The notes below the pieces were generated by a model. The model saw nothing but the letters and a program-made list of their open reading frames with translations, was not told the DNA's origin and did not search any database. Source: Verrucomicrobia bacterium LW23 (GTDB taxonomy: Bacteria; Verrucomicrobiota; Verrucomicrobiia; Methylacidiphilales; UBA1321). Taken from it: a DNA stretch of 64,000 bases. The translations under genes were made by a program, and so were the position numbers. Location of the stretch: NCBI GenBank assembly GCA_003054695.1, contig QAZA01000056.1:124001-188000 (forward strand), in the 5' to 3' direction. This document shows, piece by piece, positions 12,048 through 48,563 of the stretch. Each line of letters starts with the position of its first letter. The stretch's first letter is position 1.

Positions 12048-12131
12048 ATGACTATTTGCACCCAGATCCCGAGTTTTCGCGTTGTTGTTGCCGAAGCTCC
12101 TGCTCTGATTTCTAACTCACGCTGGTGGTGA
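12048..12131 (+). CDS. Possible leader peptide ending in Trp-Trp
   Basis: A 27-codon ORF starts at the ATG at 12048 and ends RWW-stop at 12131, just 23 bases before the chorismate mutase start. CACCACC at 12038-12044, directly upstream of this ATG, is perfectly complementary to GGTGGTG at 12124-12130, which covers the two Trp codons and the stop. Translating ribosomes could therefore change the fold. Tandem Trp codons upstream of an aromatic-pathway gene recall trp leader peptides. No terminator hairpin with a U-tract is seen before the structural gene, so any control would be translational or Rho-based. This is inference from position and codons only. Confidence 0.35.
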   Translation: MTICTQIPSFRVVVAEAPALISNSRWW

Positions 12132-12154
12132 CACTTACGACTCCTGATCGACGC

Positions 12155-13213
12155 ATGAACATCCCTGCGCTGCGCCAAAAGATCGACGAGCTCGATCAAC
12201 GCCTGCTCGCCCTGCTCAATGAGCGCGCGGAGCTTTCTTCGTCCGTAGGACGCTGGAAACAGGCGCACCAGGAGCCCGTTTTCGTACCCGAGCGCGAGGA
12301 AGCGCTGATGCGCACGCTCGTCGCCGCCAACCGCGGCCCCCTCACAAGCTCCGGATTACGAGCAATTTATCGCGAGATTTTGTCCAGCTCCCGCGCCTGC
12401 CAAAAAGCCTTCAGCGTGGCCTGCCTGGGCGCCGCCCACTCCGCGGCCTGGCACGCCGTGCGCCTGCGCTTTGGTGCGAGTGACCGCGTGGTGCCCGTGG
12501 AAACCGCGTCGGAGCTTCTGCGCGCGCTGGAAGAGGGCGATGCGGAAGTGGCGCTCCTCTCCCGCTCCGATCTCCTGAAGGCCTATTTGCCCAAGAAGGG
12601 TGTGCTGCGCAACGAGTTAGGCACGCGCCTCTTCATCTGCGGTGAGGTTCGCCTCTCCGATGCCCTCCCCGACGACGCGCAAAAGTCTCCCCTTACCGCT
12701 GAAGATCTTGCGCATCAACACGATGCCCGGTTTGAGCTGCCTGCGGGTGACGACGATATCAGCTTCCTTTCCATCCCGCAAGCTGTTGTCGATACGGCAT
12801 TTAAGCCGATCAACGGCTCGCACCGCGGTGCCGCTGCCAGTGAGCCCGAATCCGGCTCGGCTGTTGCAAGTCTGTTGCGCCAGACAACCGCGCATGCCGG
12901 GGATGCTGTCTTTTTTCTGCTCAGCCGCAGGCCTGTTCCAGAAGGGCCTCACCTCAAAACACTGGTTTGCATTTCAGCTCCACGCGGTGAGGAGATGGAT
13001 AGCGTATTGCGGGAATTGATGAGCGCTTCCGATATTATTACAACAACATGGGACACGTTGTCGCACGGATCCAAGCCGGGACACGTTTGCCACCACCTGG
13101 AGCTGGAAGGAGCGGTAGCACAATCGGTCGTCGAGGCCGCGCTCGTTCCGGCATCTGATAAAATCACGATAAAGCATTTAGGCTTCTATCCAGAAACGCA
13201 GGTATATGGCTGA
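12155..13213 (+). CDS. Chorismate mutase (AroQ) fused to a degenerate prephenate dehydratase/ACT-like region
   Basis: From ATG 12155 the 352-residue protein begins with an AroQ-class chorismate mutase domain (about 1-85): LRQKIDELDQRLLALLNERAELSSSVGRWK, then VFVPEREEALM and the helix ending YREILSSSRACQ, the usual link into prephenate dehydratase in P-proteins. The following region has the expected size and order, with GAAHSAAWHAV in place of GPEGTFSHQAA. The catalytic Thr-Arg-Phe motif is not seen. An ACT-like C-terminus (LKTLVCISAPRGEEMDSVLRELMSASDI, then GFYPE) remains. The mutase is probably active; the dehydratase probably is not, or is extremely divergent. The stop overlaps the next gene start by 8 bases (ATGGCTGA), implying translational coupling. 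Confidence 0.85.
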   Translation: MNIPALRQKIDELDQRLLALLNERAELSSSVGRWKQAHQEPVFVPEREEALMRTLVAANRGPLTSSGLRAIYREILSSSRACQKAFSVACLGAAHSAAWHAVRLRFGASDRVVPVETASELLRALEEGDAEVALLSRSDLLKAYLPKKGVLRNELGTRLFICGEVRLSDALPDDAQKSPLTAEDLAHQHDARFELPAGDDDISFLSIPQAVVDTAFKPINGSHRGAAASEPESGSAVASLLRQTTAHAGDAVFFLLSRRPVPEGPHLKTLVCISAPRGEEMDSVLRELMSASDIITTTWDTLSHGSKPGHVCHHLELEGAVAQSVVEAALVPASDKITIKHLGFYPETQVYG

Positions 13214-16200
13214 AGCACGGCCCCGCAAAGGCAAAGGCAAAACCAATAAGCGATTGGGTCGCTCCCCGGACAACGGATCCGGAGACGACAGGGACACGAA
13301 TTGGACCGAGTCAGAGGCACAGGATTCGGACGTGGCACAACCAAACGAACCATTGGACGACGCTCAGAACCGGGCGGAAATCGAGGAATCGGCTTCCGAA
13401 ACGGAGCGGAACGTCACGCCTGCATCCGACGGAGAAGGGGCGGCATCACAACTTTCGGCCGTGAAGGATGCAGCGACCGCAGCCAAAGGTAAGTCCGGCC
13501 CTCCCCCGTTTGCGGTGCCCGCCGGCGACGCCAAATACGTGCCTTCCAGTGTGGAAGTTGTTGTGGCGGAGAAGGATAGGTCAAATGGACATTCGAATGG
13601 CGGCAATGGCGGTGCCCATTCGTCGCGCGAGAAAAGCAGTGCGCTTCCCGACCTCCCGGACATCCCGATTTTGCCACCCACCCGCAAGTCTTCCACTCTC
13701 GATAGCCTGTTCGACGACGACTTGCCCGCCGATAGCGGCGACGACCTGGGCAGTGCCTGGGACGACGATTTGCGCCCCGACGATGAGCTCGCGTCGCTGA
13801 TGGGCGGCGCGGACGATTTTGACGTGGAAAGCCTTCTGGCCCAACATGAAGCAGAAGCCCGCGCCCGAGCCGCCGCCAAGGCGTCGCCGGAAAAGGAGGC
13901 TCCTGCCAAAGCTGTCAAACCCTCAACGGCCCAGGCCCCAGCCGCACCCTCGGTGCCTGTAGTGGCCGAAGCGGCGCCGCTCTTTCAGATTGATCCGCCA
14001 TCAAGGGCTGAGTCGGAAGTCTCTGCAGACGAAGCACATCCGCTGCTTGAAGTTTCGCCGACCGCTGGTGCGGAGGCCCCGATGTTTACGCCCCCGCAAG
14101 CGCAGGAAGCAGCTTTACCTATTCTGCCGCAGGGACTTACAGCGAAGGAGATTGCGGCGGAAGCAGCGCAGGCCAAGCGAGAGTCTCAGGTGGTGTCTAA
14201 TGCTGGTACAGAAGACTTAGTGCTTCCGGAAGTTGTTGCAAAACAACCCGTTGTAGAAGATGCTAAGGCCAGGCCTGTTAAGCCGCCCGTACTGCCGAGT
14301 GCGGTGGCGACATCTGTTGCGGAAGCTCCGCAAAGTGTTGAGCCGCAACAACGAGTAGTCGAACCAGTAAAGGCGACGTCGCGTCCACCTGCACTGCCGC
14401 CAACTCTCCCGGTTGGGGATGCGACGCCGAAGGCAGAGGTCATCGCAGAACAATTGTCGCCCGCTGCGCCGGAAGTTGTTGCTGCTGTGGAAGTTCCTGC
14501 GCAGCCTATCGCCAGTGTGCCGCCTGCGCCTGCCGCACCTCCGGTTGAACCGGTCTATAAGCCTAACATCTTTCATCAGGTTCCGGAAGATGTTGATGTG
14601 GAATCACTTCTGGTTACTGACGACACTGAAGCTCCTGCGGAGGAAGGCAGTAAGGATAGCACCCCTGCAAAGTCAGCGGCTGCAAGCTTCTTTAGAGATA
14701 AGACGAAGGCCGGGCGACTGGCGACGGGGACAGCGGTGGGCGATGAGGCGGATACGATTCCGCAACTGCCCGAAGCCGTTGTGCATGGCTCGGCTCGGAT
14801 CGAGCATTCCGAAGGCTTTACTACTGAAGAAGTTGCGTCGAGCGATACGGTGGAGCAGCAGATGCTTGCTCACCACGCCAACGCACCCGTGCAGGAAGTG
14901 ATGGAAGCTCCTGAGCCGGAGGTGTTTCTGCCGCCCGCGCTTCCTGAGCCCGAGCCGGAACCCGAGCCACCTGCGCCGGTGGTCGCGGTAGCGACTCCTC
15001 CCGTCTCCCCGCCGCAAGTAACTGCCCCCGTTGTGCCTGTGGCTCCAGTGGCAGCGGCTACGCCCCAATTGCCCCAGACTGTTGTGCAGCAACAGGTTAC
15101 GCCAGCCAGGGCGCCTCTCACGGCACCTACTGTGGCTTCTGCGCCTGCTCCCGTTGTCCCACCTGTTACTGCACCTGCAGCACCGCCCGTGCAGAGCATT
15201 GTGCGGCAAGTGGTTACGCCGGTTAAGGCACCAGTCGCTACAAGTTCTGCTGCACCGGTCGCGCCCGCTGTACCTGTACCGACAGAGTCGCCTGGCGTCA
15301 CTCCACCTTCCGTGCCGCCGCCCGCACCCGCAGTGGTTGCGCCCGTGGTTGAGCCGGCGCGTCCGGTGGCGGCGGCATTGCTTCCCTCCGCGGTAGTGCC
15401 TGCAGCTGCGCATGTTACGCCGCCGGCGCAGCCTCGGGAAACCGTGGTTGCGGCTCCGCCTTTGGCAGCGGCTGCTTCTTCGGTCGTACCAGCTGCGCAA
15501 CCGCTTGAACAAGAATCGGTTGCACATGTTGTGTCTCTGGTTCCGCCGCCTCCGATAGAGGAGGACGTAGCGCCGGCGTTGCCGCCCGTTCCGTCGGAAG
15601 CCCCTGTGGCACAAGCTGTTGTGGCGCGGGAAGTGCCAGAGGCCGCCAGCGCCCCAGCTCCCGTCGAGTATCCTGCTGTTCAACCGCAAGTAGAAGAGCG
15701 GCAACCTGTTACGGTGTCGGACGTGCCGGAGCTTCCTGTGTTTCCTGAGGCCGTCGCACCTGCCGAATCCGAAGCGGTTGCCTCGCTTCCGCCGGTTCCG
15801 GAAGAGCCAGAAATCCCTGTCTTCGAGTCCACACCGGGGCCGGTCGCGGTTGAGCTTCCGCCCGTACCTGAGTTCACGCCCGTGGTGTCACCGCCTGAAG
15901 TGCCTGATGCCCAACAGGATGCCGCTGTAGTTGCGCACAGTGACGCATTGTCGCCGTTACCCCCGGCGCCGGTTGCGGATAGCCAGGCTGAAGAAGCGCC
16001 CGTTGCGGCCGATCCGTTGCCGGAGTTTCCGCCTTTGCTCCCTGAGCCCGCCATTGAATCCATTGCTGCGGAGCCCGAAGCCTTTTTGCCGCCGCCTCCC
16101 GTAGAGGAGTCGGCTGCGTATGCGTTTGGTGCGCCGGCTGGCGAGGGTTGGGCGGAGCTTCCTCCGCCGCCTGCGGATGAACCTGAGGATCAACAGCTTC

Positions 16201-17978
16201 CGCCGGTTCCCGAAGAGTTTGCCGCCGCGGTGCCGCCTGTTCCGCAGGAGGATGTTGCTTTTGCGCCCCCTCCCGTGCCGGAGTTTGGCGAGATGCCGCC
16301 ACCGCCGCCGGACTTCGAGGAATTGCCTCCTGTCCCGACGGACGATGCGGCGAGCGGGGAGCCGGCGTTGCCTGGTTTTCCCGATATCCCGCCGCCGCCC
16401 AGCGCCGAGGACGACGCGGCGCAAGTACCTGCGGTGCCGGAGTTTCCGCCGGCGGATATTCCCGGGCTCCCGCCGCTTCCCGCCGAGATGGGGGTGACGC
16501 CGTCCGATCGTCGCAGCTCGCGCCCGTCGCTGTTGGGTGCGGAGCCTACGCGCATTACGAAGCTTAGCCGTAAGCCGGAGCATTTGCTGACGCGTCGCCG
16601 CAGCAAGACACTCACGGGGGGCACGAGCTTTGGGCGTTTGCCGGAGGACGGCGGCGCGGAAGATCAGGGCGGATCTGTAAATGCCGTAGAAGCAGGAACT
16701 TCCACAGATCAGGGAACTGAAACCGGCCAAGGCCGCTTTACGCGACGCGCGGGCGACGGCAGTGGGCGTATGGCCCCTCCTCGCGAGCTCGCGGGGGCGC
16801 GTAAGCCTAAGGCCGCGGTGCCTGCCGGGCCGCCTCGCACTCTCGCCCAGATGGCGCTTTGGGTGTCGGCCCACATGCTGCTATGGTGTGGCCTTTTTGT
16901 GCTGCTTGTTGCTATGTGGGTGAGCACGGTGCTGTACTTCCGTGAGACGCGTGTAGAGGGTGTGATTATTCCGCCGCCGGATACGGCGAAGATTACGGAA
17001 ATCTTTATCGTTAATGACTTTAGCGGGGATATTGGCGATTTGCGCACCCGCCTTCGCGAGCAGCGGGCGCCGTTGATCGCGCGGATGCAGGAGCGTGAGG
17101 AGCGCATAGCGAACATTCGCCGCGAGATGGAGGCGAAGGATGAGCAGGTGAAGCGCTGGCTCTCGGAAATTGAGGCGAAGGAGGCGGAGTTGAAGGACGT
17201 GCTGGCGAATGTTGTTGCAGAGCGCAACAAGATTTCCAAAGGGCCTGGCAGCGAGCTGATGGCGTTGTATGAACAACGGCAGAACGCGCTTCGACAGGAG
17301 ATTGAGGAGCGCGCGCAGGCGCTGAATCTGGAGAACTTCAAGGGCACCAAGGAGTATCCGTCGCCGGACGTCTGGCTGAATAATTACAGCATTGCGCTGT
17401 ACGGCACCCCGGCGGCGACGGCCACGAAGGAGAAGGAGTGGGTGCAGAAGAAGCTAAGCGAGTGGCGCGACTTTGTGAAATATTACGAGGAGCGCGCGCA
17501 GGAGTTTGCTTCGCAACTACGTGCGGTGGAAGGCGTTGTGGGGCCAAAGAAGCAGGAGGTCACGCAGGTGACCGAGGAGCTTCGCGCTCGGATTTCGGAG
17601 GCGCAGCAGTCCATTGGGCCGCTGAAGGACGAGATTGCGCGTGTGGAAGTGGACCAGACGGCGGATCGCGGCGTGGAGGCGACCCTGGACCAGAACTTCC
17701 TGCTGGAGCTTCAGGGCATGCCGGACCTGCACAAGAAGCGCTCCATTGCGGTGGATAACAACCGCTTCTCCCTCAGGCACTTGCAGAAGAAGGAGACGGG
17801 GCGCCTTCGCGAGTGGGAGGTGGGCACCTACAGGGCCTTTGTGCGCATTAACGTTGGCGGCGAGGAGAACTGGGCGATTGGCGAGTTTCCGATCCAGGAC
17901 TACGACACGACGCGCGTGATTATTCCGCCGGCGGCGTTCGAGCCGATATTGAAGATCCTGAAAGACGGCCTGGATTAA
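13206..17978 (+). CDS. Giant proline-rich single-pass membrane protein with C-terminal coiled coil
   Basis: 1590 residues. Residues 1-1200 are predicted disordered, rich in Pro, Ala, Val and Glu, with acidic patches early (DDDLPADSGDDLGSAWDDDL, DDFDVESLLAQHE) and degenerate PPVPE/LPPPP repeats later. A basic stretch (TRITKLSRKPEHLLTRRRSKT) precedes one membrane segment at about 1216-1240 (LWCGLFVLLVAMWVSTVLY). A long coiled coil (about 1270-1485) and a compact C-terminal domain of about 100 residues follow. By the positive-inside rule the Pro-rich part is cytoplasmic and the coiled coil periplasmic, so it could span or tether envelope layers. No family is recognised. It overlaps the chorismate mutase gene by 8 bases, an unexplained coupling. 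Confidence 0.85.
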   Translation: MAEARPRKGKGKTNKRLGRSPDNGSGDDRDTNWTESEAQDSDVAQPNEPLDDAQNRAEIEESASETERNVTPASDGEGAASQLSAVKDAATAAKGKSGPPPFAVPAGDAKYVPSSVEVVVAEKDRSNGHSNGGNGGAHSSREKSSALPDLPDIPILPPTRKSSTLDSLFDDDLPADSGDDLGSAWDDDLRPDDELASLMGGADDFDVESLLAQHEAEARARAAAKASPEKEAPAKAVKPSTAQAPAAPSVPVVAEAAPLFQIDPPSRAESEVSADEAHPLLEVSPTAGAEAPMFTPPQAQEAALPILPQGLTAKEIAAEAAQAKRESQVVSNAGTEDLVLPEVVAKQPVVEDAKARPVKPPVLPSAVATSVAEAPQSVEPQQRVVEPVKATSRPPALPPTLPVGDATPKAEVIAEQLSPAAPEVVAAVEVPAQPIASVPPAPAAPPVEPVYKPNIFHQVPEDVDVESLLVTDDTEAPAEEGSKDSTPAKSAAASFFRDKTKAGRLATGTAVGDEADTIPQLPEAVVHGSARIEHSEGFTTEEVASSDTVEQQMLAHHANAPVQEVMEAPEPEVFLPPALPEPEPEPEPPAPVVAVATPPVSPPQVTAPVVPVAPVAAATPQLPQTVVQQQVTPARAPLTAPTVASAPAPVVPPVTAPAAPPVQSIVRQVVTPVKAPVATSSAAPVAPAVPVPTESPGVTPPSVPPPAPAVVAPVVEPARPVAAALLPSAVVPAAAHVTPPAQPRETVVAAPPLAAAASSVVPAAQPLEQESVAHVVSLVPPPPIEEDVAPALPPVPSEAPVAQAVVAREVPEAASAPAPVEYPAVQPQVEERQPVTVSDVPELPVFPEAVAPAESEAVASLPPVPEEPEIPVFESTPGPVAVELPPVPEFTPVVSPPEVPDAQQDAAVVAHSDALSPLPPAPVADSQAEEAPVAADPLPEFPPLLPEPAIESIAAEPEAFLPPPPVEESAAYAFGAPAGEGWAELPPPPADEPEDQQLPPVPEEFAAAVPPVPQEDVAFAPPPVPEFGEMPPPPPDFEELPPVPTDDAASGEPALPGFPDIPPPPSAEDDAAQVPAVPEFPPADIPGLPPLPAEMGVTPSDRRSSRPSLLGAEPTRITKLSRKPEHLLTRRRSKTLTGGTSFGRLPEDGGAEDQGGSVNAVEAGTSTDQGTETGQGRFTRRAGDGSGRMAPPRELAGARKPKAAVPAGPPRTLAQMALWVSAHMLLWCGLFVLLVAMWVSTVLYFRETRVEGVIIPPPDTAKITEIFIVNDFSGDIGDLRTRLREQRAPLIARMQEREERIANIRREMEAKDEQVKRWLSEIEAKEAELKDVLANVVAERNKISKGPGSELMALYEQRQNALRQEIEERAQALNLENFKGTKEYPSPDVWLNNYSIALYGTPAATATKEKEWVQKKLSEWRDFVKYYEERAQEFASQLRAVEGVVGPKKQEVTQVTEELRARISEAQQSIGPLKDEIARVEVDQTADRGVEATLDQNFLLELQGMPDLHKKRSIAVDNNRFSLRHLQKKETGRLREWEVGTYRAFVRINVGGEENWAIGEFPIQDYDTTRVIIPPAAFEPILKILKDGLD

Positions 17979-18048: not shown

Positions 18049-18351
18049 TTACTTGCCGGCGGTGTAAACTTTCACTTCCATCTCGTCGTTTTTGAAGATG
18101 ATGGTGGCCGTGGCGCCTTTGGAGTCGCGGTAGATGTAGGTGGTGGTTTTGCCGCCCACGATGGGGATCGGTGCTTCGGCTACCTCGTTGGGCTGTCCGA
18201 GGACGGAGCGTACCTGCGCGGGGCTCATGCCTTTGTCGAGCTTGGCCACACTTTCCGCGGAGAGGCCGCCGACGAGGGGACCGCCACAACCGGTGAGGAC
18301 TACGGCGAGGGTGGGGATAATGAGCATGCGGGAGAGGGATTGAATATGCAT
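18049..18351 (-). CDS. Small lipoprotein with SmpA/OmlA (BamE-like) fold
   Basis: 100 residues from ATG 18351, preceded by an AAAGGA ribosome-binding site. The signal peptide ends in the lipobox LTGC (Cys at about 22), so it should be lipid-anchored. The mature part has KLDKGMSPAQVRSVLGQP, the helix-turn pattern of the SmpA/OmlA domain, then beta strands TTTYIYRD, ATATIIFKND and EVKVYTAGK. BamE itself helps assemble outer-membrane proteins, but many small BamE-like lipoproteins exist, so that specific role is not established. It stands downstream of two other small stress/envelope genes on the same strand. Confidence 0.85.
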   Translation of the reverse strand: MHIQSLSRMLIIPTLAVVLTGCGGPLVGGLSAESVAKLDKGMSPAQVRSVLGQPNEVAEAPIPIVGGKTTTYIYRDSKGATATIIFKNDEMEVKVYTAGK

Positions 18352-46191: not shown

Positions 46192-46854
46192 CTACGGCAC
46201 TACCCGCATGTTGTCGCGCACGTCGTAACTGACGCCTTTAAAGGTCAGTTTCAGCCGTGTGACTTCGATCCTGGAGGTCTTGGGGTTGGTGCGGATGGAG
46301 AAGAGGACGGAGCCTCGCCCGTTGGTGCCGCTCACCTCCGCAAAGCCGTCCATCGCCTTCTCGTCCGCCTGCCACTTCAGTTCTTCGCCTGGTACCTCGT
46401 GCAGGTTAATCTCATCGCCAAGCATGCGGCGAATTTCGGGGTTGCCCGTCAGCGCGGCGACGACGTGGGATTTGCAGTAGATTTCCTCGGTGGCTCGCTC
46501 CTCGGCAAATTCGCCGTCCTCGTTCATCAGGTGCTCGCCCAGCATTACCAGGCCAAACATGGCAAACAGCATCAGCATGCCGGCGCCCAGGCAGCCGTAG
46601 ATGCCGAGGGCCATCACCCATTTTCGCAGGCTCCATGCAGGGGCTGGCGCGTTTGCCGCCGTGTAGGCAATGGCGCCCCGTTCGGTAATCAGAAACATGG
46701 AGTACCGCACCCAGCTGGAGCTGTCCTTGGCATCGTCCGGCGCCACCAGGGTGGTGCTGGTAATAATGCCTTGCCGGTGAAAAGCGGCTAGTGTCTCGTA
46801 GTCGACCGGACCTACAGCCTGATTGTCTTCGTCCAGGTAGTAGTATTTCCTCAT
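46192..46854 (-). CDS. GYF_2-domain membrane protein, paralogue 3
   Basis: 220 residues. The N-terminal GYF_2/DUF4339-like domain is RKYYYLDEDNQAVGPVDYETLAAFHRQGIITSTTLVAPDD..SSWVRYSMF. One membrane segment at about 80-103 (ALGIYGCLGAGMLMLFAMFGLVML) follows, then a C-terminal domain (about 130-220) that resembles Coa1-like beta domains: LTGNPEIRRMLGDEINL, GRGSVLFSIRTNPKTSRIEVTRLKLTFKG. The same architecture recurs in the two genes upstream. Its ATG overlaps the upstream stop by ATGA. GYF_2 domains usually bind proline-rich partners. The function is unknown. Confidence 0.85.
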   Translation of the reverse strand: MRKYYYLDEDNQAVGPVDYETLAAFHRQGIITSTTLVAPDDAKDSSSWVRYSMFLITERGAIAYTAANAPAPAWSLRKWVMALGIYGCLGAGMLMLFAMFGLVMLGEHLMNEDGEFAEERATEEIYCKSHVVAALTGNPEIRRMLGDEINLHEVPGEELKWQADEKAMDGFAEVSGTNGRGSVLFSIRTNPKTSRIEVTRLKLTFKGVSYDVRDNMRVVP

Positions 46855-47903: not shown

Positions 47904-48563
47904 CTACGGGCTGGCCGACTGCACCTCGCTGCGGATGTCGTGCTTCTCACCGTTAACGTCCAGCTCGAAGACCATCCATGTGCCTGTAGTTTTGTCGTTG
48001 GGCATCAACATGTAATGGATCTTGGCCGTGCCGCTGCCCTTGCTGCCTTTGACGCTGACTGTGCCGCTCGTCATATTCAGCCGCTCGCGGTGCTCCAGGG
48101 GCGATCCGGAGATCTCGTCGACCTCGATGTCGCTGCCCAGCAGGCGCTGCGCGGTGGCGCTGGCATTGATGCCCTCCTGCGCCTTTACCAGCACGTTCTG
48201 CGTCTCCTGCAGTTTCGACCTGATTTTGCCGAATTCCTTTTCCACTTCGGACCCAAGCTGTTGCAGTACAAGGACTCCCACGATGGAGAGAACGATCATG
48301 ATAAAGCAGCCTCCACCCAGGATAATCGCCGCCCAGGTGCCGCAGCCTACGCCCCCGCTGGCAGCCGCCGGCGCCGCGCCGTAGCCGGCCGTGGAGGATT
48401 CGGGGAACGGATAGTTGCGGTACGGCACCCATGCGGAGCCCCCTTCGGGCATCACCGGCGTGTCGCTGGTGATCTGCCCCTGCTGATGCAGGCTGACCAG
48501 CTCGTTATACGGCACCGGGCCGGCCGTCTGATGCTGCTGATTGACGTAGTAATATCGGTTCAT
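47904..48563 (-). CDS. GYF_2-domain membrane protein, paralogue 1
   Basis: 219 residues. GYF_2 domain (MNRYYYVNQQHQTAGPVPYNELVSLHQQGQITSDTPVMPEGGSAWVPYRNYPF), a Gly/Ala linker, one membrane helix at about 75-100 (TWAAIILGGGCFIMIVLSIVGVLVL), a short coiled region (EKEFGKIRSKLQETQNVLVKAQEG), and a Coa1-like C-terminal domain (TAQRLLGSDIEVDEISGSPLE, GTVSVKGSKGSGTAKIHYMLMPND). First of three tandem paralogues. It starts 173 bases after the transglutaminase gene end, same strand, so it might belong to the long peptide-processing transcript. Confidence 0.85.
   Translation of the reverse strand: MNRYYYVNQQHQTAGPVPYNELVSLHQQGQITSDTPVMPEGGSAWVPYRNYPFPESSTAGYGAAPAAASGGVGCGTWAAIILGGGCFIMIVLSIVGVLVLQQLGSEVEKEFGKIRSKLQETQNVLVKAQEGINASATAQRLLGSDIEVDEISGSPLEHRERLNMTSGTVSVKGSKGSGTAKIHYMLMPNDKTTGTWMVFELDVNGEKHDIRSEVQSASP

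Follow-up and report, generated by a model that had tools for sequence, protein, structure and literature searches.

What kind of protein is encoded by the long open reading frame that begins inside the end of a chorismate mutase (CM) gene, and what could such a protein do? The frame lies in a stretch of 64,000 nucleotides from Verrucomicrobia bacterium LW23, which was analysed as a whole and is referred to here as the window. The positions of the gene and its parts are collected in Table 1. The frame encodes 1590 residues and, as the CM frame ends at 13213, the two overlap by 8 nt (ATGGCTGA), just as had been proposed from the sequence. Homologues occupy the same position in many genomes and conserve the transmembrane (TM) helix and the C-terminal part, so the frame is a real gene. 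The codon-position GC content of its C-terminal part was also similar to that of the neighbouring genes. A gene for a BamE-like small lipoprotein (PF04355, 4.6e-06) converges on its 3' end from the minus strand (window 18049-18351).

Table 1. Features of the locus in window coordinates
Feature	Residues	Position	Strand	Basis or remark
CM gene: CM domain and decayed prephenate dehydratase/ACT-like part (decayed P-protein)		12125-13213	+	PF01817 4.5e-22; hhalign
Overlap of CM stop and start codon, 8 nt		13206-13213	+	putative translational coupling
Gene of the 1590-residue protein	1-1590	13206-17978	+	ATG start; ORF list and homologue search
Low-complexity Pro/Ala/Val/Glu tail	1-1222	13206-16871	+	probably cytoplasmic; length very variable across the family
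Tail stretch rich in [LI]PPxP	770-1100	15513-16505	+	motif count against shuffles
Juxtamembrane net-positive stretch (net +7)	1111-1222	16536-16871	+	sequence charge
TM helix	1225-1243	16878-16934	+	hydrophobicity; model helix 1213-1245
Strands 1-2 of membrane-proximal beta domain (RETxVEG ... DF)	1246-1272	16941-17021	+	alignment and model
Outward hairpin arm, one ~100-residue helix	1273-1372	17022-17321	+	model and arm lengths
Hairpin tip, consensus SPEVWANAYRLALYxAPP	1373-1424	17322-17477	+	most conserved region
Return hairpin arm	1425-1503	17478-17714	+	model and arm lengths
Strands 3-7 and last helix of beta domain	1504-1590	17715-17975	+	model

The search with the last 388 residues showed that the protein is conserved among relatives: it was found in 54 of the 60 sampled Methylacidiphilales genomes, mostly as a single copy. 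Named records place the family in this order of the Verrucomicrobiota, including Methylacidiphilum and Methylacidimicrobium. The single-sequence search reached the order alone, plus one marginal match. A profile built from 32 members detected more members, again linked to CM, in a few further families that belong to the same class (f71, f76, and f78) and none in the other sampled genomes of the phylum; additional profile matches with E values of ~1e-5 to 1e-3 span the coiled coil only and were not counted as members. The plasmid records searched gave no match to the protein. At five loci (L064, L067, L074, L089, and L094), the protein and the gene order or close relatives were seen under Bacteroidetes, Betaproteobacteria, Akkermansia, or Paceibacterota titles, and these look like mislabelled Methylacidiphilales bins.

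The original prediction, in which a disordered tail and a single membrane helix lead into a coiled coil with a compact end, was borne out and could be refined with a confident AlphaFold model of residues 1193-1590 (mean pLDDT 90.7). The pTM of this model was 0.63, so the overall shape and the kinks of the modelled hairpin protein are uncertain. As numbered in the protein (model numbering in brackets), the TM helix spans 1213-1245 (21-53) and is followed by two strands, 1249-1254 and 1265-1269 (57-77), and a single helix, 1273-1372 (81-180). After a tip helix at 1387-1400 (195-208), the chain is predicted to come back along the helices 1403-1443 and 1445-1503 (211-311) to five strands at 1510-1573 (318-381) and a short last helix. 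The strands flanking the hairpin probably belong to a single small domain adjacent to the membrane. As a helix of 100 residues measures about 15 nm, the hairpin is predicted to be ~15 nm long.

The lengths of the two arms were compared across ~50 homologues, with truncated contigs not counted. In nearly all of them, the outward arm measures 118-122 residues from the conserved DF motif to the tip asparagine, and the return arm 114-115 residues from this asparagine to a conserved proline that follows it. The deviating arms belong to the most distant homologues (111 and 108 residues in L119, 126 and 120 in L120, and a return arm of 116 in L122). Conservation was highest at the tip, with a mean Jensen-Shannon score of 0.522 versus 0.358-0.468 in the other regions.

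No known family had been found to fit the protein, and the searches upheld this, as the matches in Pfam, NCBIfam, and the PDB were generic coiled coils. Scans of the whole protein, its C-terminal part, and 32 homologues against Pfam and NCBIfam matched nothing but coiled coils, all far below the cut-offs. Every hit of the sequence profile search of the PDB was a coiled coil or a helical bundle (best E 0.0007), and no PDB sequence scored below E 0.039 with the profile of the second beta half. With the model as the query, the hits of Foldseek and VIA did not rise above the background of long helices (SMC arms, chemoreceptors, large toxin helices, and the like), and no Foldseek hit reached E <= 0.001. 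When the second beta half was folded by itself (pLDDT 81), no fold matched it (Z at most 2.8), a result of little weight because this half lacks two strands. A Pfam scan of the joined beta halves yielded no match either, apart from two weak Y_Y_Y hits spanning 15-18 residues. No description of the hairpin protein or its gene order was found in the open-access literature, and the family appears to be undescribed.

Residues 1225-1243 form the sole strong hydrophobic helix of the protein. A charge scan misplaced the TM helix of the window protein (at 717), and the separately located helix was used instead. Among the homologues in which the TM helix was located, most carry a net positive charge on the N-terminal side that largely or wholly disappears beyond the helix, and some have little or no net charge ahead of it. 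A pattern search across homologues found the juxtamembrane motif LLSRKR in a minority only. The positive-inside rule, applied to the net positive charge ahead of the TM helix, makes a cytoplasmic tail and a periplasmic hairpin probable.

The composition of the tail is strongly skewed, with 26.5% Pro, 18% Ala, and 15% Val in residues 561-1110. It had been described as carrying degenerate PPVPE repeats. Shuffles of residues 770-1100 showed that short proline motifs do exceed what composition predicts (10 observed versus 0.42 expected for [LI]PPxP and 4 versus 0.27 for PP[VLA]PE), but literal repeats are few. PPxLP was likewise above composition in the tails of the window protein and six homologues (L050, L035, L031, L079, L036, and L034). 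By eye, the tails of L034, L035, and L050 have short conserved stretches in common, e.g., GWKxLxPGELE and LSSVAKP, as well as repeated [RK]PPxLP, which may serve in binding.

The tail ahead of the profile match varies from 0 to 1192 residues across homologues, and in many of them merely 0-50 residues precede the match while the hairpin is retained. The minimal homologue, L119, has 350 residues; its TM helix starts ~10 residues from the N terminus, and the cytoplasmic tail is entirely absent. The idea that the protein is in essence a cytoplasmic scaffold organised by its proline-rich part thus found no support, since this part is nearly missing in many homologues that keep the hairpin. Taken together, the invariant arms, the conserved tip, and the variable tail indicate that the extracytoplasmic part is under constraint, both in its length and at its far end, and that the tail is free to vary.

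The tail had further been suggested to be bound by the GYF_2 proteins encoded at 46-48.6 kb. The GYF_2 domains there were confirmed (genes at 46192-46854 and 47904-48563, minus strand), and the genome search added a third one. The GYF-domain ligand consists of PPG and a hydrophobic residue, and no PPG tripeptide is present in all 1590 residues. Moreover, the GYF_2 genes in the window are unremarkable, as the family has ~23 matches in the whole genome. We therefore rejected the GYF_2 proteins as partners of the tail. Such a large GYF_2 set is itself unusual and was not found in 14 control genomes.

The upstream CM gene was examined by profile and hhalign comparisons. Its CM domain is intact by profile, and the remainder aligns with prephenate dehydratase and ACT regions. 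The family of this gene matched the intact P-proteins of the class with a probability of 100%, large gaps, and no VTRF motif. The genome has a separate prephenate dehydratase gene elsewhere (L098) and also a second CM-domain gene. The proposed translational coupling corresponds to a real adjacency, as 50 of the 51 assessable loci have CM immediately ahead of the gene on the same strand; of the 53 distinct loci, two end at a contig edge, and L124 is the locus without CM nearby. Relative to the CM stop, the start of the protein mostly falls between about -23 and +41 nt. L124 (G015) encodes a divergent homologue and is the single clear exception to the coupling. In three families of the class outside the order (L119-L123; G342, G349, G354, G359, and G369), the arrangement (trpS-)scpA-scpB-CM plus the hairpin protein is kept; CM has just 164-170 residues in four of these five, and the ORF caller reported no scpA in L123.

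Such strict coupling to a decayed CM/prephenate dehydratase gene is an unexplained conserved gene order. One reading takes it for a functional unit, in which the hairpin protein would, for example, recruit the CM-like protein to the membrane or sense through its decayed dehydratase/ACT part. The constancy of the gene pair and a CM partner lacking a recognisable dehydratase motif speak for such a unit, but shared translation alone can preserve the order, L124 does without CM nearby, and the near-tailless L119, L120, and L122 keep the order with nothing cytoplasmic to bind CM. We consider this reading the least probable of those weighed here. As the two genes would be translated together, a fixed ratio of the proteins follows with no need of a biochemical link to CM.

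Further upstream, scpB was found in 39 of 47 assessable loci, scpA in 32 of 45, and trpS in 33 of 42; the downstream neighbours were prmA (16 of 39) and mreB (8 of 28). The frequency of scpA and scpB could suggest a chromosome-envelope tether working with the condensin subunits ScpA and ScpB. However, the order scpA-scpB-pheA with a full-length P-protein gene also occurs in genomes of the class in which the hairpin protein was not detected (L126, L130, L132, and L133), so the scpAB-P-protein order is probably older than the hairpin protein. In addition, the window and Methylacidiphilaceae have lost scpAB at the locus and retained CM and the hairpin protein, and several homologues have almost no cytoplasmic tail. 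A tether of this kind is therefore very improbable. The neighbours trpS, scpAB, CM, and prmA are housekeeping genes and give no pointer to the envelope.

The reading that we prefer, with a probability of about 0.45, is that of a bitopic protein anchored in the inner membrane and acting as a ruler or tether in the periplasm. The TM helix would anchor the protein in the inner membrane, the beta domain would sit by the membrane, and the ~15 nm antiparallel hairpin would cross the periplasm, with its conserved tip docking to a fixed partner at the peptidoglycan or the outer membrane. In homologues with long tails, the repeated proline motifs might recruit cytoplasmic proteins multivalently and so link periplasmic and cytoplasmic sites. 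The protein would then belong to the core envelope components of Methylacidiphilales and be made in a fixed ratio to CM. The bridging of envelope layers put forward as a possibility in the original prediction would be consistent with the basic residues before the TM helix and with the near-fixed length of the predicted hairpin. The near-fixed arm length may also reflect the internal register of the coiled coil instead of a spanning role. A bolder version, which we regard as rather unlikely, is a lineage-specific core part of the envelope, namely a single-chain ruler with which Methylacidiphilales would set or sense how far the inner membrane lies from the peptidoglycan or outer membrane, and which a freely evolving proline-motif tail would couple to the cytoplasm.

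Since the hairpin is strongly constrained in length and the tail is free to vary, a spacing role is directly testable. Long periplasmic spacers with a critical length bear on the general question of what sets envelope width in bacteria, and here a nearly order-wide gene, carried also by the acidophilic methanotrophs Methylacidiphilum and Methylacidimicrobium, is without a name, a domain family, or a function.

A more specific form of the ruler or tether is an accessory factor of peptidoglycan synthesis or division that relays the signal of a cytoplasmic filament through the TM helix to wall enzymes, similarly to MreC, RodZ, or the FtsEX-linked coiled coils (EnvC, PcsB, and RipC). MreC shares with the hairpin protein one TM helix, a periplasmic coiled coil, and a beta part. 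The MreC profile NF010518 matched weakly (E 0.0016), which speaks for such a role, but the match was confined to the coiled coil and did not extend over the whole protein (17.7 bits versus a cut-off of 385). Unlike MreC, the hairpin comes back to the membrane. The gene mreB lies downstream in Methylacidiphilaceae only, in some cases (by eye) with mreC and a PBP2-like gene behind it, so the mre cluster adjoins in just one family and a separate mreC is present in those very loci. The helical, hairpin-like extracytoplasmic parts of RipA, RipC, PcsB, and EnvC are structurally similar (VIA Z 8-9), but such values are background for long helices, and unlike these regulators, the hairpin protein has its own TM anchor and matched no hydrolase or LytM domain. 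Also in favour of such a role, EnvC and MreD are reported to have gone undetected among PVC bacteria in one survey (PMC5147048). Overall, the accessory-factor reading is possible but doubtful; a role in wall synthesis is nevertheless the most plausible specific version of the ruler or tether, mainly owing to the mreB neighbourhood in one family.

HlyD and AcrA resemble the hairpin protein in architecture only. Both have a helical hairpin with a conserved tip inside a beta domain, behind a TM anchor in the case of HlyD. The same order of TM helix, beta strands, long helical hairpin, and beta strands, together with a tip that is the most conserved region, would fit a periplasmic adaptor of an export system whose tip docks to an outer-membrane channel. 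However, only two strands precede the hairpin, and no HlyD, lipoyl, or adaptor family was matched by any of the 32 members: among their 25 most frequent Pfam families, all of them coiled-coil families, HlyD and lipoyl families are absent. The conserved neighbours (trpS, scpA, scpB, CM, prmA, and mreB) include no recognised transporter or channel gene, although an unlinked transporter is possible. Periplasmic adaptors do not usually carry a long cytoplasmic tail rich in proline, which counts against this reading, and we judge it improbable.

Two further likenesses concern parts of the protein. With SMC and Rad50, whose arms were the best Foldseek hits, it shares a long antiparallel two-helix coiled coil; unlike them, it is anchored by a TM helix and has no matched ATPase head (Walker motifs) and no hinge. 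The strand pattern VEGxV...V followed by DGxFxW...PGxYxLxV resembles, by eye, the transthyretin-like/CarboxypepD_reg sandwich; seven strands are predicted, with no profile match, and the fold search was dominated by the hairpin or made with an incomplete domain. Membrane proteins that pass the membrane once and carry a coiled coil in the periplasm are a known type, and what is new here is the hairpin set in a beta domain and joined to a free proline-rich tail.
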